The notes under the pieces were generated by a model that did not search any database, had not been told where the DNA came from, and saw only the letters and a program-made list of their open reading frames with translations. This document shows, piece by piece, positions 8,170-17,992 of a DNA stretch of 64,000 nt. Made by a program: the position numbers and the translations under genes. The first letter of the stretch is position 1, and each line of letters opens with the position of its first letter. Origin of the DNA: Desulfovibrio ferrophilus. GTDB taxonomy: Bacteria; Desulfobacterota; Desulfovibrionia; Desulfovibrionales; Desulfovibrionaceae. The DNA is taken from positions 62,001 to 126,000 of the forward strand of contig NZ_AP017378.1 of assembly GCF_003966735.1 (NCBI RefSeq), given 5' to 3'.

Positions 8170-8838
8170 TCAGATGTGAATGGTTCTGCCATCCTCCATG
8201 CGGATGATGCGCTGGGCACGCCTTGCATGAGCCTCGTCATGGGTGACCATGACCACGGTCAGTCCGCTTTCGGACAGACCCGCCAAGAGGTCCATCATGC
8301 CCTCGCCTGTGGCTCGGTCCAGACTGCCGGTGGGTTCGTCAGCAAATAGAACTCGTGAATTTTTGACCAGGGCACGGGCAATGGCCACGCGTTGCTGTTC
8401 TCCACCGGAGAGTTGACCGGGGAGCCGGTCGTGTTTTCCAGACAGTCCCACCCGGTTAAGGCATTGGCGTGCGTGTTTGGCCTGTTCACTCGAGACAGGA
8501 GTCAATCGGTTCATGAACGGCAGGAGCACGTTCTCCTGTGCCGTGAGGTAGGGCAGCAGGTAATGCTGTTGAAAGATCACCGCGAAGTCCGAATGGCGCA
8601 GTGCATTCAGTTCGGTTTCCGACATTGCCAGCAGATCGCGCCCCTCGAACTCCAAACGCCCCTGATCCGGAGCTGTGAGGGTGGACAGCACCGAAAGCAT
8701 GGTGGACTTGCCCGAGCCGGAGCGTCCGACCAGAGCAACGAATTCGCCGCGTTGTACATGCAGGTCCGCATTAGCCAGGGCCGTGGTGGTGATCCCATCG
8801 GAGAGGTAGCTTTTGGTGATGTCTTGGGCAATGAGCAT
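8170..8838 (-). CDS. ABC transporter ATP-binding protein (LolD/MacB-type)
   Basis: The 222-residue ATPase has Walker [11 protein letters not shown]-loop region [12 protein letters not shown], signature LSGGEQQRV, Walker B VLFADEP and the switch His in VTHDEA. It belongs to the LolD/MacB/FtsE group that works with FtsX-like permeases rather than with classical importers. It follows the permease by 8 bp and is the last gene of the DUF2318 operon. It is similar in arrangement to the iron-uptake set next to p19 in Campylobacter, hence a metal-related role is inferred. Confidence 0.88.
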
Positions 8839-8846
8839 GTGATCTC

Positions 8847-10010
8847 CTAGAGCGAAATGAGGGCTTCGGCCGGATCGATGCGTGAGGCCTTGGCTGCGGG
8901 GATTGCCGCCGAGATAATGGTGACCACAGCCACGAAACCGATGGTGACCAACAGATGCAGCGGGACAAAACTCAGATTGGCGTCGGTGGTGATGCCAAGG
9001 ACGGAGGCAACTTTGAAGCTCAGGGCATAACCGGCAACATAGCCCACCAGACCGGAGAGGGCTCCGATGAACAGTGCTTCGAAGCAGAAGATGCCGAAGA
9101 TGGCACGGCGTGAGTAGCCCAGGGACCGCAGAACGCCGATTTCCTTCTTGCGTTCATTCACGGCCGAAAGCATGGACAAACCCACCATGGAGCAGGCCGT
9201 GAGCAGGATGATGATGCTCACCGCCAGAATCAACTGCTTGACGAAATTTACCGAGTACATGCGTTGTTTGACGATGCTTTGCAAAGCTTTGACTTCGACG
9301 CCCGGCAGGGTGTCGGCAATCTGTTGGACGATGTCCTCGATGGGACAACCAGCGCACAGGGCTGCGACTTCCACAAAGCTGACCGCACCAGGGTTGCCGG
9401 TCAATTCCTGAACATAAGACAGGTCAGCCAGAACCACGTTGTCGTCATCACTGCCCGTGGGCAACAGCAGACCACTGACTTTTGCCGAAAGTCCCAGCGG
9501 GGTCAGATCGTCTCCGGGTGCCAGGCCCAGACGCTCGGCCACGGCGGAACCCAGCAGAACTTGTGCCCCGCCGGAAGGATACGAGCCGTTCACTGCCCAG
9601 TAGCCCTTGATGGTCTGTTCGGCCTCGAAGCGCACGCCCACCAAGCCCACGGAGGTTCCACCCAACTCATGCATGGTCACCAGCTTGGGGGCCACACTGG
9701 CGATGTTGGCAGAATTCTTGATGCCCCTGATTTGCGTGGTGGTGTGGGCCTCCTGCAGGTAGCGCACGTCCACCAGCATGTCTCCGAGGTTGAAACCACC
9801 GTAGCTGACAGTGAGGGTGTCCGAAGTGGGGTAGACCAGAATGTTGGCCCCGAAAGCCGTAAGTTTTTTCTCAAGGCTTTGGCCGACCACGCGCGACACG
9901 TTGTTCAGTGCCACGATGGATGAAACACCTAGCGTGAAAACTACCAGCAGGAGCAGGCTGCGCAGCCATTTGCGCCGACTGCTGCGTAGAGGGATGGTCA
10001 GGATATTCAT
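8847..10010 (-). CDS. FtsX/MacB-like ABC transporter permease
   Basis: The 387-residue protein has the MacB layout: an N-terminal helix (about 15-35), a long periplasmic domain (36-265), then three C-terminal helices within an FtsX domain (NERKKEIGVLRSLGYSRRAI). It pairs with the ATPase 8 bp downstream. It starts 9 bp after the stop of the DUF2318 gene. Substrate is unknown; the neighbour points to iron or another metal in the periplasm. Confidence 0.85.
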   Translation of the reverse strand: MNILTIPLRSSRRKWLRSLLLLVVFTLGVSSIVALNNVSRVVGQSLEKKLTAFGANILVYPTSDTLTVSYGGFNLGDMLVDVRYLQEAHTTTQIRGIKNSANIASVAPKLVTMHELGGTSVGLVGVRFEAEQTIKGYWAVNGSYPSGGAQVLLGSAVAERLGLAPGDDLTPLGLSAKVSGLLLPTGSDDDNVVLADLSYVQELTGNPGAVSFVEVAALCAGCPIEDIVQQIADTLPGVEVKALQSIVKQRMYSVNFVKQLILAVSIIILLTACSMVGLSMLSAVNERKKEIGVLRSLGYSRRAIFGIFCFEALFIGALSGLVGYVAGYALSFKVASVLGITTDANLSFVPLHLLVTIGFVAVVTIISAAIPAAKASRIDPAEALISL

Positions 10011-10795: not shown

Positions 10796-12454
10796 CTAGC
10801 GGCCAAATGAACATTTGGGGAAGGTGCAGGTTTTGCACTCGTGGCACAATCCGCCTTCTCCGAATTCGGCCAGATCAGTTCTGGTGATAGGGGTGTCGGC
10901 CAGCAGCCTTGGCAACAGCAGGTCAAGGCTTGTGGTCTTATGGAAGAGGGCGCAGGCCGGGACCCCCAGAATCTGAACCGAACCCAGCTGGCCCACCAGA
11001 GTCATGGCTCCGGGGAGCACGGGCATGCCGTAGAGCATGTCTGCGATTCCTGCATCCTGGAGCCCCTTGCGGGTCACATCGTCTGGGTCAACGGAGAGGC
11101 CAGCCGTGGTGATGATGAGGTCACATTGTTCTGCCACAAGCTTCTGGACCGCTTCGCAGATGGCCTTGGCATCGTCCGGTGCCTTGATGGTGTCGACCAC
11201 CTGACTTCCCAGATGTGTCACCTTTGCGGACACAACAGGCGCGAACTTGTCTTCCACGAGTCCGGTGAATACTTCGGTCCCGGTGACCAGCACACCGACC
11301 CGGGCCTTGCGGAGCGGGTGAATCGAAAAGAGTGGTTCCTCATCCAGAATCTGAAGCGCTGCCTGGAAGTCCCTGTTTGGAAGGTACAGAGGGATGGCGC
11401 GTGTGCCTGCGATCTGGGCGCCTTTCTGTACGATGGAGTGGGATTGGCGACAGGCGCACATGACGCCGGGGACATGGTTGAACTGTTTGAGTCTGACCGA
11501 ATCAACAACCAGTAGGCCGTCGTGATCGGCCACAAGCTTTGATTTGCCTTCGCGCGGGTCGCCAAGCACCCTGGTTCCGGGGCCGGACATGAGTTTGGCA
11601 AAGGCGGTTGCGGCCTTGTTCTCGTGGACCCATTCGGCTCCGGGATTCTGATCGTCCAGGTAAATGCGGCTGCGGCCCATGCGTTGCAGTCGGCAGACGT
11701 CGCCGCCGGTGATGACCTGCCCGTGCAGGAATTCGGGGCCCTTGCTGACGCCGGGTTCGATGCGGGTCATGTCGTGCAGGGGACTTCCGCCAATGGCCTC
11801 TTCCACAAGCGTGGCAACGAGCTCAGGCTCAGCCAGACGCTCTGCGTTGGGACTGTCCACATAGGGCGATTCGCCCTGGCAGGAGCGACAGATGGCCCCG
11901 AATTGGGCCGGGTAGGGCTCTTTGCAGATTGGGCAGGGAACAACGCGACCTTTGCTGCGCTTGATGAGTTGTTCGGGCCTGACCTGCACATCGCGCATGG
12001 AGCAGATACTGGCTCCGGCCTCGATAATTTGACGGCGCAGGAGTTTGGAATTCTGCTCGGGTTTTGGTTTGAGCTTCAGTAGCCAGGTTTTGATTTCGGA
12101 GTCAGGCTCCACTTTGTCTAGATCGAGCCACAGGCGCACACCCTTGCCCGTGAATTTGTCGTACAGACACACGGCGTACAGGCCAAGATTTAGGATTTTG
12201 AGCCAGCCGTTGCCGATGGAACAGGGAGAGAGCATCTGAACCGCATCGGGCAGGCACCATGAGGTTTCGCTGATGGCGTCGAACAGGGTGTCGTCGGGTA
12301 GGGCTTTGATGGCGGCGTCCACCATGAAGCCTCCCAGGACGAGGCCTGGTGCGGCATAGCCATGGAACTGGGTGGCTGCCTCTATGAATTGATCGATTGA
12401 ATAGGGGCCAATGGTATCGGATGGAGCCAGGAGTTGTGAGTAGTCCGTGTTCAT
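10796..12454 (-). CDS. FmdE-MoeA fusion protein (molybdopterin/formate-dehydrogenase-type accessory)
   Basis: The 552-residue protein starts with an FmdE-like domain (about 15-200; FIEAATQFHGYAAPGLVLGG) that includes a zinc ribbon (CPICKEPYPAQFGAICRSC). A MoeA/MoCF-binding domain follows (about 340-520; ITTAGLSVDPDDVT, GMPVLPGAM). It ends with a Cys cluster, CHECKTCTFPKC. MoeA-type domains insert Mo or W into molybdopterin. It lies downstream of a Mo/W oxidoreductase operon, so it likely serves maturation of that enzyme. A hairpin in the 68-bp gap before it may lower its expression relative to the upstream genes. Confidence 0.8.
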   Translation of the reverse strand: MNTDYSQLLAPSDTIGPYSIDQFIEAATQFHGYAAPGLVLGGFMVDAAIKALPDDTLFDAISETSWCLPDAVQMLSPCSIGNGWLKILNLGLYAVCLYDKFTGKGVRLWLDLDKVEPDSEIKTWLLKLKPKPEQNSKLLRRQIIEAGASICSMRDVQVRPEQLIKRSKGRVVPCPICKEPYPAQFGAICRSCQGESPYVDSPNAERLAEPELVATLVEEAIGGSPLHDMTRIEPGVSKGPEFLHGQVITGGDVCRLQRMGRSRIYLDDQNPGAEWVHENKAATAFAKLMSGPGTRVLGDPREGKSKLVADHDGLLVVDSVRLKQFNHVPGVMCACRQSHSIVQKGAQIAGTRAIPLYLPNRDFQAALQILDEEPLFSIHPLRKARVGVLVTGTEVFTGLVEDKFAPVVSAKVTHLGSQVVDTIKAPDDAKAICEAVQKLVAEQCDLIITTAGLSVDPDDVTRKGLQDAGIADMLYGMPVLPGAMTLVGQLGSVQILGVPACALFHKTTSLDLLLPRLLADTPITRTDLAEFGEGGLCHECKTCTFPKCSFGR

Positions 12455-12522: not shown

Positions 12523-13077
12523 TTAGGGAGTCTTGGTGTAGATGATGGACTGGGTGCTCATTTTTTTGATCACCTGTTTGCCGTCGGCCTCGGCCTGCAT
12601 CAGCAGGATCTCCTTTTCACCGAAGCTCAAGGCATCGGTCAGGCAGACGTCCACACAGACGGGGTCCAGGCCGTGGGTCACGCGATCGTAGCACATGTTG
12701 CACTTGTGCGCGTAATTGTTCTGTTTGTTGAATTGGATGACTTTGTAAGGGCACTTGTCGATGCATTCGCCACAGCCGTTGCACTTTTCCTGGTCGATGA
12801 GGACGATGCCGGTCTGCTCATCCTTGGTGATGGCACCGACTTCACAGACCTTGGCACAGGGGGTCTTCTTGCAGTGCTGGCACATGACCACCCAATAGTC
12901 TTCCTGCAACGAGGGGAAAGTTCCCTCAAGTTTGCTTTCCACCCGGAGGTAGTTTGGAATGGCACCGGGTTGATCGTTTTCGTGATCGATGATGTCGTGG
13001 TGGTTGCGGCAGGCCACGATGCAGGTCTTGCACCCGATGCAGCGATCGAGATCCACCATTATGCTGAGCTGTCTCAT
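12523..13077 (-). CDS. 4x[4Fe-4S] ferredoxin subunit of the molybdoenzyme (PsrB/DmsB/FdnH type)
   Basis: The 184-residue protein holds four cluster motifs: CIGCKTCIVAC (13-23), CQHCKKTPCAKVC, CNGCGECIDKC, and CNMC with DPVCVDVC. This is the electron-transfer subunit of CISM enzymes. It lacks a signal peptide and a membrane helix, so the complex is cytoplasmic. It starts 12 bp after the catalytic subunit, with GGAGT as ribosome site. No NrfD/PsrC-type membrane partner follows, so electrons probably go to a soluble carrier. Confidence 0.88.
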   Translation of the reverse strand: MRQLSIMVDLDRCIGCKTCIVACRNHHDIIDHENDQPGAIPNYLRVESKLEGTFPSLQEDYWVVMCQHCKKTPCAKVCEVGAITKDEQTGIVLIDQEKCNGCGECIDKCPYKVIQFNKQNNYAHKCNMCYDRVTHGLDPVCVDVCLTDALSFGEKEILLMQAEADGKQVIKKMSTQSIIYTKTP

Positions 13078-13089
13078 TTCAAACTCCTT

Positions 13090-15225
13090 TTATTTGTAGA
13101 TCTTGACCCGGGTGGAAACGTGAGCTTCGCCACCGCGCATGTCCTGTTCGTCCAGGGTGGAGCCTGCATCGGCGATCAGCTCGTTATCGCCGATCCAGTT
13201 GCCGCGTGAGGCTACCTTGCCCATGGTCTGGCCAAAGCCGTGGATGATGCCAGCACAACCAGGGATGATCTTTTCCGTGAGCATGATGGGGACTTCGACC
13301 TTGCCGCTGCCGGATTCCATGGTCACCGTATCGCCGTCTGCAATGCCCAGCTTCTTGGCGTCGATGGGATTCAGCAGGCAGGGGTTGGCGTCCAGGCCAG
13401 AGGCCGGGTCGCGGAGTTGGGCGTTGTTTTGGGACCAGGCTCCGGTGTTGTTGAGGAAGATGGTCCTGAAGTTGACCAGAATGAATGGGAATTCCTCTTC
13501 ACCTCGGCGATATTCCAGAGGCAGCTCAGGGCTGGGCCACTCTTGCCCGATGTCTTTGTACATCTGCCATTCCAGCTCGATTTTGCCGGAAGGGGTGTTG
13601 AACTTGCCCTGATCCTCGTACTTGCGGAAGCCAGCAGTGCCGGGGGACCACAGGCCACCGTTCTCCTGAAGCTTCTTCACGGACATGCCCACACCGGCGA
13701 GTTCGATATCATAGTACTCGACGTCGTCCTTGAAGGCGAAGTATTCCGGGAACATGCGCTTGCCAAGCTCGATGAAGACCCTGTTGGCATGGCGTGCCTC
13801 GCCAATGGGTTCGACTACGGGCTGGCACAGGGCAGTGCCGTGACCGAAGTTGTACCACCAGGGCATATACAGCAATTCCCAACGCTCGAAATTGGTCTGG
13901 TCGGGCAATACGAGGTCGGCCCATTTCATGGTCTCCGACGGCATGATTTCCGTGACCACAAGCAGCTCAAGTTTGTAGTCGCCATTCTCGTCCTTCATGG
14001 TCACGGCCTTGCGCCACTCGCCCGAACCCATTTCCGACAGGGCAGGGTTGCACTCCGAGGCGAAGAAGACCTTGAGCCCGTCGTCCTTGATGGCCTGGGC
14101 TGCGTACCATGTGGGCTCCAGGAAGAAGTTGTAATTGTCGAACTTCTCGCGGTTCTTGCCTGTGCGGTGGTAGCCCAGTTCCCCAAGGTCGGGGCCAGCG
14201 GGCACGGGTTCGACCGGAGCCATGGGAGCGATTTCCGGCAGAGGCTGCCCACCGGGGTTGTCCAGGTTGCCGGTGATGACGAGGAAGGTTGACCATGCGT
14301 GGCCCCAGTCCATGCCGTTGCCGTACATGATGGACTTGAAGGCATCGATGCAGGCGCTGGGTGCTTCTGCGACCATCTTTGCCAGTTTCTCGATGTCCGC
14401 AGCCGGAACGCCACAGATCTTGCTCATGGCCTGGGGGGTCTTGTCGGCGATGTATGCCTTCAGGCTCTCCATGTCTCCTTCACGAACCCATTTGTCGCAG
14501 AACTCCTTGTCGTGCAGGTCATTGGCCAGCAGATAGTTGCAGACGCCCAGGAACAGGGACGCATCTCCGCCGGGCTTGATGGGAATCCACCAGTCGGCCT
14601 TGGAGGCTTCGGTGCGGTAGATGGGATCGATGACGATGAGCTTGGCTCCACGTGCCTTGGCATCAAGGATGTGTTTGGGCACACAGGCATCATCCAGACA
14701 GCCGAAGGGGTGACGACCGGACAGAATCATCAGGCCACCCTTGGGTACGGTATTGTACATGGGGGCGATATGGTGGTTGGGGAAGCAGCCAAAAGTGTGC
14801 ATGTGGGCCATGATCTTGGCCGAGTCACAATGCGGCAGACCCGTGGAAATGAAACCTCCGCAAGCGTTCACAAATCGCCATTTGGGATCGGTGACTGAAT
14901 GAGGGAACATGGAATAGGTGAACTTGTGGGCCTCGCCACGGTCACGGAGTTCGGTCAGTTTGGTTTCCATGATGCCCATGGCTTCGTCCCAGGTGATGCG
15001 TTCGAACTTGCCGCTTCCACGTTCACCGACACGCTTCATGGGGTATTTGAGCCGCTCCGAGGAATATAACGAAGTGATACCGGCCATGCCCTTGACGCAG
15101 GCCTTGCCGCGACCCCGGGGATTGCCTTTCACTTCCTTGACGACGCCGTCTTCCACGCGGGCCAGAATGGCGCATTCAGCCTTGCACTGATAGCAAACAG
15201 TTGGAATCCACCCATCTTCATACAT
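13090..15225 (-). CDS. Mo/W-bis-MGD oxidoreductase, cytoplasmic, PsrA/PhsA/acetylene-hydratase-related; substrate unknown
   Basis: The 711-residue protein of the DMSO reductase superfamily carries an N-terminal [4Fe-4S] motif (C11, C14, C18, C43). A likely metal-ligand Cys133 lies in STGLPHCDSAK. Further signatures are LILSGRHPFG-like, LIVIDPIYRTEAS and GGDASLFLGV. The C-terminal molybdopterin dinucleotide-binding domain begins near 585. No Tat signal is present, unlike periplasmic Psr/Phs/Ttr enzymes. The motif around Cys133 is not that of nitrate reductases or formate dehydrogenases. An FNT channel upstream suggests a small anionic substrate. The start follows AGGAG. Confidence 0.85.
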   Translation of the reverse strand: MYEDGWIPTVCYQCKAECAILARVEDGVVKEVKGNPRGRGKACVKGMAGITSLYSSERLKYPMKRVGERGSGKFERITWDEAMGIMETKLTELRDRGEAHKFTYSMFPHSVTDPKWRFVNACGGFISTGLPHCDSAKIMAHMHTFGCFPNHHIAPMYNTVPKGGLMILSGRHPFGCLDDACVPKHILDAKARGAKLIVIDPIYRTEASKADWWIPIKPGGDASLFLGVCNYLLANDLHDKEFCDKWVREGDMESLKAYIADKTPQAMSKICGVPAADIEKLAKMVAEAPSACIDAFKSIMYGNGMDWGHAWSTFLVITGNLDNPGGQPLPEIAPMAPVEPVPAGPDLGELGYHRTGKNREKFDNYNFFLEPTWYAAQAIKDDGLKVFFASECNPALSEMGSGEWRKAVTMKDENGDYKLELLVVTEIMPSETMKWADLVLPDQTNFERWELLYMPWWYNFGHGTALCQPVVEPIGEARHANRVFIELGKRMFPEYFAFKDDVEYYDIELAGVGMSVKKLQENGGLWSPGTAGFRKYEDQGKFNTPSGKIELEWQMYKDIGQEWPSPELPLEYRRGEEEFPFILVNFRTIFLNNTGAWSQNNAQLRDPASGLDANPCLLNPIDAKKLGIADGDTVTMESGSGKVEVPIMLTEKIIPGCAGIIHGFGQTMGKVASRGNWIGDNELIADAGSTLDEQDMRGGEAHVSTRVKIYK

Positions 15226-15406: not shown

Positions 15407-16297
15407 TTAGGTGTGTTTGTCCGGTGCGGTCTGCATCCGGCGTTTGCGGTACAATTCCTTGAGTTTGAGCGGGTCGACCACAAGCTGAAAAATGACGGCC
15501 ACGAAGAGGGTTCCACCGATGGCGTTGCCCATGACAGTAAACAGCTGGTTGTGTGCCCATCCGAATTTTCCGAATCCCCAATGCATCAGCACGGGCGTTA
15601 TTTCGTTCATGTTCGAGACGGCCTCAATCCACAGGTCCTGCTGGAACAGTGGCACCGCCAGAAAGCCGATGTTGGCAATACAGTGCTCATTCATGCCGGC
15701 GACAAAGGCCAGAGGACCGTAGGCCGTCAGCATGATCTTGCTCATGTCGTCGTTGGTTTTCATGAAAAGGATGGCTGCGGATTGGAGCGTCCAAGTGCAG
15801 ATGATGCCCATGACGAATATTTCCATGGCGGTTTCACCAGTCTTTGCCAGGCCGATATCGTGTGCGCGCATAAGCCAGGGCAAGGCGTGGTAGCCCCCCC
15901 CCTTACTCATGATCCACATGAAGCTCATGGAACCGGTGAAATTGCCGACATAACCGGCAAATACGCCCAGAGCGAATTGTCCCCAGGATATCCGGCTTTG
16001 AAACACGCCGACCAGACCGTAGGCCATGTCAGCGGTGACCAGTGTCATGCCACTGAACATGATGATGACCAGCGAGAACATGAACACCAGCCCCATGAGC
16101 AGATTGGCCAGCCCCGGTGCCAGATTTTGCGGGACCCCGGCTGATACGGCCAAAGCGAGCATGGCCCCGAAGCAGACAAATGCACCTCCTGCGAATGCTG
16201 AAAGCAGGAAAGCAAGGGGTCTGTCCCTGAGCATTTCCCATTTTTTGGAACAGAGGTCCGCGACCCCCAGAATATGTTCCTCTGAATTCAACGGCAT
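15407..16297 (-). CDS. Formate/nitrite transporter (FNT) family channel
   Basis: The 296-residue protein has about six hydrophobic helices. Signatures of the FNT family are FVCFGAMLALAVSAG, FSGMTLVTADMAYG and the central MNEHCIANIGFLAVP, with the conserved His and Asn. FNT pentamers conduct small monovalent anions or acids such as formate, nitrite, hydrosulfide or lactate across the inner membrane. Start ATG at 16297 is set by AGGAGA five bases upstream. It heads the molybdoenzyme operon and probably supplies the substrate or exports the product. Confidence 0.88.
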   Translation of the reverse strand: MPLNSEEHILGVADLCSKKWEMLRDRPLAFLLSAFAGGAFVCFGAMLALAVSAGVPQNLAPGLANLLMGLVFMFSLVIIMFSGMTLVTADMAYGLVGVFQSRISWGQFALGVFAGYVGNFTGSMSFMWIMSKGGGYHALPWLMRAHDIGLAKTGETAMEIFVMGIICTWTLQSAAILFMKTNDDMSKIMLTAYGPLAFVAGMNEHCIANIGFLAVPLFQQDLWIEAVSNMNEITPVLMHWGFGKFGWAHNQLFTVMGNAIGGTLFVAVIFQLVVDPLKLKELYRKRRMQTAPDKHT

Positions 16298-16591
16298 CAA
16301 GTTCTCCTGTGGAAACGTCCTTTGCCCTGATGAACTGTGGGTGTGGATGTTCAACTGTTCCCGTCAACGGGAGATGTGGTACCTCTTGGAGTCCATTGCT
16401 TGGCGCGGTGCACTGCGCGCAGACCTTTTTCAGTGCCTGCAAGATAAAGAGCCGCGAGGTACCGAAAAAGTTACCTGTCTGGAGAAAAAAAGTTGAAAAT
16501 AAACGGGAGAACCGAAGCGGAAGTAGGGGGCGGGTGCTCGTCCTGAAAGGAGATGCGGGAGTGCCTGTGCGATTGGCGCAACGGGCAGGCG
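16298..16591 (-). other. 294-bp leader of the FNT-molybdoenzyme operon with long-range inverted repeats
   Basis: Between the sigma-factor gene and the FNT gene no open frame is credible. GGTACCTC (about 16379-16386) and GAGGTACC (about 16457-16464) form a perfect 8-bp inverted repeat enclosing about 70 bp that itself contains a GC-rich palindrome (GCGCG..GCGCGC near 16410). A smaller hairpin CCCGT-CA-ACGGG lies near 16360. This is the natural place for the promoter read by the upstream sigma factor, and it could hold an attenuator. Confidence 0.45.
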
Positions 16592-17992
16592 TCAGCGAAA
16601 TTTGTTGCACACGAATTGATCCAGATCGCAAGGGGCGGAGAGCACTCCGCTGGCAAGGGCGAGTTTCATGAACTTGGCCATTCTGTTTTTGTCCGGGTGT
16701 AGATTGTCGAAGGTCACGACTTTGCCTTCAAGAACCCGGGCGGCGAGTTCGCTCTGGATGCCGGTGTAGATGGCCTGGGTTTCCGCACAGTATTTAATAT
16801 CAGTATGAATCTTGTCCCGTGCCCGGAGCAGGGCGCAGACATATTCGCTGACAAGATTGGGATGTGCCTGGCAAAAGTCTTCGCGCACGGCCACGACACA
16901 GCATGGATGACCGGGAGCGAGATCCTTGGAGCGGATGAAGACGTTGGCATCGCCTTCACATACGCATTTCGTGCTCCATGGCTCCGCACAGAAGAACGCG
17001 TCGATTGTCTGGCTTTTCAGGGATCGAATGGCATAAGACGGATTGGTGTCCGCGGTGTTGATGTTTTCCCAGAGTTTCGGGGCTTCATTGGCTAATTTGC
17101 CCAGCAGGACGCGGTGTGTTGAATAAGGGCCGGGGACACCCACGAGTTTGCCCTGGAGCTTGTTGGTGGACGCTGCCAGGGCGCTGCCATCATGATGTCC
17201 GTCCAGGACGTATTTGAGGTGTGTACCGGAGTTGCACAACTGCATGGCAAGGGGGGCCATGATAAAGGCCGCATCAATTCGCCTCTGCTTCAGGGCCTCG
17301 GCAAGGACGCTCCACGACAGGAAACGTTTCATGTGGATTCTCGAGTGCCGTCCTTTGCTTAACCTGTGGGCTACCATGCCCAGCAGATGGTCGGATATGG
17401 GTAGATACCCGACCCGGATTGCTGTTTCCCCCATTTGATCCTTGAGCATGCTGGCAAGTCTAGGCTGAGCGCTGTGCAATCGCTTGCGGACGGTGCCTTT
17501 GTTGACGGCAAGGATGTCGGCGATTTCGTCGATGGAATGGCCGGATTCGTAGTAGAGAAGACAGACGTCGCGCAGGGGAGCGGACAATTGCAGGAAGGCG
17601 TGATTGACCGCTGCCTTGAAACAGCGCTGCTCATACCTGGATGCCGGGTCCAGGGCTTTCGGGGCTAGCGGTTGGTAGCGGTCCAACCCCTCCAGGGAAA
17701 CCTCTTTTCCTCGTTTGCGTAAATGCCGGTAGCATTGAGAATCGACAATGGATCTGAGCCATCCCGGAAAGCTGTTGACGTCCCGAATCTGGTCAAGCCT
17801 GGTGAAAGCGATGATGAGGGCTTCCTGGACGACATCTTGAGCCTCTTCCCGGGAGAGAAGGATTCGCCCTGCACGCACGAGCATCCCTGGCATCAGCTCT
17901 GATATCAGCTTGGCGAACCCGTCTGTATCGAGGTTGTTTCCTTGCTGTTGAGCCGGGCTGTTTCGTTTATCAAATTCTCTGGCTTGAGCCAT
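16592..17992 (-). CDS. ECF-type sigma factor fused to a cytoplasmic NrtA/NasS-like solute-binding domain
   Basis: The 466-residue protein joins two families. Residues 28-182 form an ECF sigma factor: region 2 with EEAQDVVQEALIIAF and FPGWLRSI, region 4 with LSAPLRDVCLLYYE, SIDEIADIL and GTVRKRLHSAQPRL. Residues 191-466 form an NMT1/NrtA-type solute-binding domain (IRVGYLPISDHLL, RRIDAAFIMAPLAMQL, HPCCVVAVREDF). No signal peptide or membrane helix is present, so the sensor is cytosolic, like NasS. It lies upstream of and co-directional with the FNT-molybdoenzyme operon. I infer a one-component, ligand-gated sigma factor. Confidence 0.85.
   Translation of the reverse strand: MAQAREFDKRNSPAQQQGNNLDTDGFAKLISELMPGMLVRAGRILLSREEAQDVVQEALIIAFTRLDQIRDVNSFPGWLRSIVDSQCYRHLRKRGKEVSLEGLDRYQPLAPKALDPASRYEQRCFKAAVNHAFLQLSAPLRDVCLLYYESGHSIDEIADILAVNKGTVRKRLHSAQPRLASMLKDQMGETAIRVGYLPISDHLLGMVAHRLSKGRHSRIHMKRFLSWSVLAEALKQRRIDAAFIMAPLAMQLCNSGTHLKYVLDGHHDGSALAASTNKLQGKLVGVPGPYSTHRVLLGKLANEAPKLWENINTADTNPSYAIRSLKSQTIDAFFCAEPWSTKCVCEGDANVFIRSKDLAPGHPCCVVAVREDFCQAHPNLVSEYVCALLRARDKIHTDIKYCAETQAIYTGIQSELAARVLEGKVVTFDNLHPDKNRMAKFMKLALASGVLSAPCDLDQFVCNKFR

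Follow-up and report, generated by a model that had tools for sequence, protein, structure and literature searches.

The window, which is the whole 64,000-nucleotide stretch of Desulfovibrio ferrophilus DNA that was analysed, carries on its minus strand an open reading frame (16592..17992) that begins with ATG, contains no internal stop codons, and encodes a protein of 466 amino acids. The N-terminal part belongs to the ECF sigma factors: residues 26-181 match the NCBIfam model sigma70-ECF (TIGR02937; E 4.3e-21, 75.2 bits, cut-off 42.9), and both region 2 (about residues 40-96; Pfam Sigma70_r2, E 1.1e-10, 41.6 bits, cut-off 24) and region 4 (about residues 130-174; Sigma70_r4_2, E 1.4e-7, 31.5 bits, cut-off 25.7) score above their curated cut-offs. 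Behind the sigma regions, the sole Pfam match is the binding-protein (SBP) family NMT1_2 (PF13379; residues 188-395, E 2.5e-24, 86.9 bits, cut-off 24.7), and the protein contains neither a SnoaL nor a TPR domain.

A structure model of the fusion was built from 35 sequences (pTM 0.65; mean pLDDT 84.9, a value silent on the relative placement of the sigma and SBP domains). Residues 189-466, about 278 in all, are predicted to fold into a complete binding protein with two lobes, and this complete fold, together with the profile score, places the domain in the NMT1_2 fold. The last sigma helix stops near residue 182 and the first SBP strand begins near residue 192, so the linker would comprise about 10 residues (about 183-191). 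When compared with solved structures, the modelled SBP is closest to 3UN6 of Staphylococcus aureus (Z 36.6, 274 residues, rmsd 2.1), followed by NrtA (Z 32.6), the regulatory domain of CmpC (about 32), and CmpA (about 31); AioX ranks lower (Z about 16), and the matches also include the enzymes Thi5, MqnD, and DszB. Pfam, NCBIfam, and the model agree with an earlier note, made from the sequence alone, that had described regions 2 and 4 of an ECF-type sigma factor fused to a complete NMT1-type domain. The likeness to NrtA and NasS proposed there holds for the fold (Z 32-33 for NrtA and the CmpC domain), but is not supported for the ligand, given a Cys-Cys signature and 3UN6 as the nearest relative; likewise, the suggested comparison with NrtA and CmpA returned both proteins, but neither is the closest structure.

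The architecture supports a cytosolic location of the SBP, as the earlier note had assumed: the sigma domain fills the N-terminus, where a secreted SBP would have its export features. The ten flanking genes encode no BPD_transp_1 permease of the kind that accompanies NitT/TauT SBPs. A MacB/FtsX-type permease (8847-10010) and an ABC-cluster ORF (8170-8838) lie farther away, but they are of another kind than NitT/TauT. A Pfam scan of the same ten genes detected neither an anti-sigma family nor a NasT/ANTAR family, in line with the view that the output is the sigma factor itself, with no anti-sigma factor and no NasT.

In a set of 59 genomes that contains the window's own, the fusion has one other full-length copy (91% identical) and six further near-full-length matches (38-46% identical), located in six other genomes (two places in G001, and one each in G032, G014, G016, G027, and G046). 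When 297 genomes of the order were searched (E <= 1e-40), 30 gave matches, one of which (G097) covers the SBP part only, at a contig start; no match in either search contains a stop. In a phylum-wide draw of 395 genomes, the full fusion was found in four, all from the window's own family, and six matched in the SBP part only. Searching for the domain order, as the earlier note had advised, was productive: a contig collection scanned with two peptide patterns, which may have missed more distant sigma-SBP fusions, yielded 36 loci: 22 full-length fusions (L028-L048 and L050), a fusion truncated where its contig stops (L049), and 13 further loci. The 22 full-length fusions include 13 from Desulfovibrionales, four from Desulfobacterales or Desulfocapsa (L039, L043, L044, and L050), and five labelled only as Proteobacteria or delta proteobacterium; judged by length and place, the contigs of L028 and L042 are G001:C32 and G001:C17. 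For the relatives, genes were called with a simple ORF picker instead of a trained gene finder. The alignment of full-length fusions comprised 23 sequences drawn from 22 assemblies, L028 and L042 coming from the same one. These repeated full-length copies in other genomes, with matches free of internal stops, rule out a frameshift, chimera, or assembly error, the failure that the earlier note had named for its own reading, and we give such an artefact practically no weight.

We built a quick tree, without bootstrap, from 37 SBP domains; four non-fused rows in it have long branches, and the 23 fused domains form one clade (SH-aLRT 100); the simplest reading is that the fusion arose once. Across 22 loci, the SBP part is better conserved than the sigma part, with mean pairwise distances of 0.54 and 0.65, respectively. 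Such conservation, like the invariant SBP signature described below, is hard to reconcile with an SBP part that is inert ballast on a sigma factor controlled by its own transcription only. Some ECF groups are governed in that way, according to the part of PMC8999054 available to us, but for this family we regard the idea as very improbable.

Next to the fusion gene on the minus strand lies a gene for a channel of the FNT (formate/nitrite transporter) family (15407..16298; Form_Nir_trans, E 1.7e-42); its ORF call begins at a TTG at 16354, and the true start is likely the ATG at 16298, judging from the window sequence and from relatives. It is followed, on the same strand, by genes for a molybdopterin oxidoreductase of 711 amino acids (13090..15225), closest to the catalytic subunits of thiosulfate/polysulfide reductases, and, by family matches, for a 4Fe-4S dicluster electron-transfer subunit of 184 amino acids (12523..13077) and an FmdE + MoCF_biosynth protein of 552 amino acids (10796..12454). 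The last of these comes next in the same direction in the window, L028, and L030. The 711-aa type of molybdopterin oxidoreductase and the 4Fe-4S gene are near the fusion in 23 of 24 loci (the window and L028-L050), the exception being L047, where the contig stops before them. All 24 loci have a transporter near the fusion (FNT in 10, HPP in 14, both in none, with some contigs short), and these two unrelated families seem to interchange in one role. The HPP locus L050 retains, around position 8878 between the sigma gene and the enzyme, a 22-residue relic of an FNT start (score 83, against a best of 49 in 200 shuffles); three other HPP loci tested (L032, L033, and L040) have none. Setting aside the genes for the transporter, the enzyme, and the FeS subunit, no other ORF cluster is found at a constant position in more than a handful of the fusion loci. 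In L044 (4996-6999), the FeS gene matches as two pieces about 1.4 kb apart, as if interrupted.

A transporter so regularly close by could also be a protein partner. The SBP domain might dock onto the FNT or HPP protein, or onto the FeS subunit or molybdoenzyme, with sigma activity tracking the state of transport or of the enzyme; in NrtC, an SBP-like domain belongs to the ATPase chain of the transporter (8wm7 chain C), and the conservation of the SBP could stem from partner binding. We consider this unlikely, however, since the transporter swaps between unrelated families while the signature stays constant, and the invariant residues are found where a ligand cleft is expected.

The molybdoenzyme has a mean column identity of 78% over 25 sequences. 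Among solved structures, thiosulfate (polysulfide) reductase is nearest to it (2vpw, 4.5e-59), followed by acetylene hydratase (4.8e-38) and the FdhF subunit of a CO2 reductase (1e-32); the PhsA model ranks first, yet with 228 bits it is far below its cut-off of 694. The invariant Cys133 aligns with Cys173 of PsrA, which we take to be the Mo ligand, and this cysteine, along with the closest relative, marks the protein as resembling a PhsA/PsrA catalytic subunit. Formate dehydrogenases have a (Se)Cys-His pair at the Mo ligand; here Asp134, not His, follows Cys133 in all 22 sequences compared, and a formate dehydrogenase was rejected on these grounds. PhsA/PsrA reductases are exported and work with a membrane anchor subunit, whereas this enzyme has no export signal visible by eye and no membrane-anchor subunit family among the neighbours scanned, where we saw the FNT channel only. 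The structure model of the enzyme was too poor (mean pLDDT 65.9). As for the transporters, the FNT family is named after formate and nitrite and the NirC model was matched, and the literature search returned no paper tying FNT to thiosulfate or hydrosulfide; HPP proteins of plants and cyanobacteria carry nitrite, according to the available part of PMC10605003.

Within the 297 genomes of the order, the molybdoenzyme (E <= 1e-200, identity at least 61%) occurs in 34 and the fusion in 30 (counting G097, represented by its SBP part only), with 29 genomes common to both. The sole genome with the fusion and without the enzyme, G110, is 63% complete. Conversely, five of the 34 enzyme-bearing genomes (G241, G039, G058, G077, and G091) have no fusion, which indicates that the operon can run without it. 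At these five loci, the FeS gene comes after the enzyme gene, the preceding transporter is FNT in G241 and HPP in G039 and G091, no transporter ORF was called in G058 and G077, and the surrounding 16-kb stretches contain no relative of the fusion. The fusion-less operon of G241 (L079) stands right behind genes that resemble, by eye, an Rnf complex, a possible electron partner. A second copy in G196 (L084, 6616-15841) is a further enzyme/FeS/FmdE set without the sigma fusion, with a transposase-like ORF before it and nitrogenase-like genes after it (by eye), and with the FmdE-like gene split into two ORFs of 264 amino acids.

The earlier note had placed the sigma gene upstream of an operon that it may control, and at the start of this operon we found a predicted ECF-type promoter in 22 of 22 loci, between the fusion gene and the operon (consensus GGGAAC-17 nt-GCTCTT). 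In the window, the predicted promoter is at 16447..16475 on the minus strand (-35 GGTAAC, 16475..16470; 17-nt spacer; -10 GCTCTT, 16452..16447). At the imposed 17-nt spacing, all 22 sites share AAC and two Ts in the -35 region and a single C in the -10. ECF sigma factors recognize bipartite promoters with a -35 of the AAC type, and this sigma factor may read the site. The stretch 16298-16591, described in the note as a leader, is indeed upstream of the next operon and holds the predicted promoter, but it is downstream of the sigma gene, as that gene is on the minus strand.

We examined these sites with leave-one-clade-out matrices, each built from just the two remaining clades. The best match was the hand-marked site in 22 of 22 loci, in a test that is not fully blind, as the sites were first picked by eye and the 17-nt spacing is built into the matrix, and in which related loci are not independent. 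The site outscored all 200 shuffles in 19 of 22 loci; its score was reached by 7, 12, and 9 of 200 shuffles in L039, L044, and L047, respectively. This count excludes L048 and L049 (in one the ORF picker missed the fusion, in the other the contig ends), and gaps were trimmed to 450 nt (L031, L041, and L050). In the window genome, the pattern occurs without mismatch at one place, 16475-16447, and the other 14 matches have 2-3 mismatches each; the total of 15 is below that of the reversed-pattern control (23). Seven related genomes hold eight matches with at most one mismatch (control: 3), seven of them about 110-125 nt beyond the end of the fusion match and one elsewhere, in G132. This distribution is as expected for a sigma factor that would be dedicated to essentially one operon.

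Other forms of control were also considered. A scan of as much as 400 nt ahead of the sigma gene in each of the 22 loci found no comparable site (scores of 11.0, a moderate value, in L050, 6.6 in L034, and at most 1.9 in the others), and autoregulation through the same promoter is therefore not supported. Sigma residues follow the -35 type, but this co-variation proves nothing because both track phylogeny. A riboswitch was rejected, with no Rfam match within the window at gathering thresholds, and generic sigma-70 and terminator scans of the leader region did not rise above shuffles. Downstream of the predicted -10, on the minus strand at 16404..16422, lies a conserved, largely palindromic element, CTGCGCGCAGTGCACNGCG, which is identical in all five aligned loci of the window's own clade (the window and L028-L031). 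It has one exact match in the genome and, at 2-3 mismatches, 13 other matches (one being the same place on the opposite strand), compared with two for the reversed pattern; it is a possible operator for a second regulator in this clade.

In both sequence and fold, the fused SBP is nearest to S. aureus 3UN6 and to SBPs of ABC transporters. Among the 13 non-fusion loci, six have a CODH-cluster (Ni-CODH-family) gene close to the SBP and eight have permease- and ATPase-cluster ORFs directly behind it, assignments for which one CODH, one permease, and one ATPase were checked with Pfam; most of the stand-alone SBPs have signal-like N-termini by eye. According to the available part of PMC6344411, NitT/TauT transporters that accompany clade B Ni-CODHs resemble 3UN6 and have been proposed to import metal; the function of clade B enzymes is considered open in the part of PMC13056359 seen. 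Two non-fusion loci encode other multidomain proteins: L059 (19139-20869, minus strand) has a receiver, NMT1_2, and CheW in one protein, in an ORF that runs off the locus end, and L061 (4698-6479, plus strand), from a Syntrophomonadaceae genome, has a V4R-NMT1_2 fusion with KaiC-like, FeS, and AIRS genes as neighbours. The receptor fold was apparently captured separately by these chemotaxis-type and V4R proteins.

An alignment of 35 rows (23 fusions and 12 other SBP domains) revealed P198, D201, H202, W227, P247, H266, G269, T292, E337, H362, C364, and C365, among others, as invariant; L063, outside this alignment, differs from the D-H/H/C-C signature. In the model, these residues are predicted to sit in loops, at helix starts, or next to strand ends, and we read them as probably lining the ligand cleft. 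Compared with the CmpC regulatory domain, H293, E337, and H362 are retained, whereas D201-H202 corresponds to A-C, H266 to T, and C364-C365 to G-K; the lysine of the NrtA/CmpC branch, presumably a ligand-site residue, is thus not found in the fused SBP. 3UN6 retains H266, the STH and EP motifs, and C-C, and has no equivalents of D201-H202 and H362. With a signature differing from both the CmpC domain and 3UN6, the pocket appears to be of its own kind.

Two variants of a ligand-sensing sigma factor differ in the ligand. The signature could bind a transition metal, with gating like that of CorE: Cys364, Cys365, His202, His266, His362, and Asp201 are invariant in the 35 rows, the title of 3UN6 describes it as zinc-bound (nothing usable was found in the literature on this S. 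aureus protein), and metal import has been proposed for the Ni-CODH-linked relatives in the available part of PMC6344411. We hold a metal sensor to be possible though doubtful, as 3UN6 is without D201-H202 and H362, two stand-alone SBP relatives sit among sulfur-metabolism genes, and the transporter of the operon is FNT or HPP, families for which we know of no metal transport. The NrtA/NasS likeness of the earlier note would suggest nitrate or nitrite and a response to nitrogen oxyanions, and both FNT and HPP have nitrite-transporting members (for HPP, in the part of PMC10605003 seen). Against this, Cys364-Cys365 replaces the Gly-Lys of the CmpC domain, the closest kin of the SBP is other than NrtA, the enzyme is nearest to thiosulfate/polysulfide reductases and not to Nap or Nas, and NasT is absent from the ten flanking genes; a nitrate/nitrite sensor is likewise a minority prospect.

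A soft ligand, either a sulfur species or a metal, would fit the residues of this pocket better than nitrate, while the association with FNT or HPP points to a small anion, for example nitrite. As to ligand class, our guess is a small anion or a small sulfur species, which would at the same time serve the transporter/enzyme pair as substrate or product. Among the Ni-CODH-linked ABC loci, L052 and L058 carry a PALP-family, cysteine-synthase-like gene (one Pfam-checked), and L058 and L062 have ThiF and Cys/Met-metabolism enzymes near the SBP. Sulfur-metabolism settings of this kind are described in the available part of PMC1779556, hinting at a sulfur substrate for these transporters, instead of or beside the published nickel proposal.

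Most ECF sigma factors sense signals through an anti-sigma factor, and the few known to act alone use small domains or metal sites. Sensors with the NMT1/NrtA fold and a regulatory output exist in NasS-NasT, a sensor/antiterminator pair, and in the cytosolic regulatory domains of NrtC and CmpC; the present protein differs in that its output is a sigma factor, Cys-Cys stands for the Gly-Lys of CmpC, and no NasT is nearby. AioX, an arsenite-sensing SBP, is also a binding protein used as a sensor, but it is a separate protein feeding the kinase of the two-component system AioSR, whereas the output here is the sigma factor. The Ni-CODH-operon NitT/TauT SBPs and 3UN6, nearest in sequence and fold (with the signature partial in 3UN6), stand alone, whereas here the SBP is joined to a sigma factor. 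On the sigma side, the available part of PMC8999054 describes at least 26 ECF groups with N- or C-terminal extensions, including ECF41 (SigJ, with a C-terminal SnoaL domain) and ECF42 (TPR), which share with the fusion a C-terminal regulatory domain without an anti-sigma factor, and the metal-gated CorE and CorE2 (ECF238), which are their own receptors, as is OrbS with its on-board iron sensor (PMC9023288, part seen). In contrast to ECF41, ECF56, and ECF42, the extension here is a whole two-lobed binding protein and neither SnoaL nor TPR; CorE has a cysteine-rich domain, with no binding-protein fold in the portion of its description seen. No binding-protein extension is named among the extension-bearing groups in that part of PMC8999054, and no sigma-NMT1/SBP fusion was described in the literature searched, a scope outside which the 2021 ECF classification lies, where a matching group may exist. 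C-terminal sensor extensions on sigma factors are thus known; what seems new is a whole binding protein as the extension, and a sigma factor gated by a ligand within one protein seems not to have been described before, as the earlier note had supposed.

We propose that the observed fusion, its conservation and apparent single origin, the near-unique promoter-like site, the operon linkage, and the FNT/HPP exchange are best explained by a sigma factor that acts as a one-component, ligand-gated switch for one dedicated operon, a reading we consider probable; we infer that the sigma part reads this site, that the SBP binds a ligand, and that the two are allosterically coupled, and likewise the direction of control. 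A sigma factor would double as receptor: a small ligand would enter the inter-lobe cleft of the cytosolic SBP domain, and closing or opening of the lobes would act through the short linker on sigma region 4, so that the state of the lobes would decide whether the sigma part is able to associate with RNA polymerase. The holoenzyme would then read one dedicated promoter, GGTAAC-17-GCTCTT at 16475-16447, and drive expression of the transporter (FNT here, HPP elsewhere), the cytosolic molybdoenzyme, the FeS subunit, and, here, the FmdE-type protein. On the side of the sensor, the SBP-like C-terminal domain of CmpC is called a regulatory domain in its structure title; on that of the sigma factor, CorE offers an ECF example whose gating depends on a C-terminal extension that binds metal (PMC8999054, part seen). 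That a small-molecule receptor with a periplasmic-binding-protein fold is itself a sigma factor serving essentially one promoter is a view toward which we incline.

In summary, in some sulfate-reducing bacteria a sigma-SBP fusion appears to activate a single adjacent operon, which encodes a transporter and a molybdoenzyme. If this is true, a well-understood ligand-sensing fold and transcription initiation would be united in a single polypeptide with one defined promoter, a design that, for this reason, would lend itself to testing and make an appealing sensor. A further gain would be a clue to what substrate the uncharacterised transporter-molybdoenzyme operon handles, and to that of the SBP subfamily of Ni-CODH-linked NitT/TauT transporters (PMC6344411, PMC13056359).
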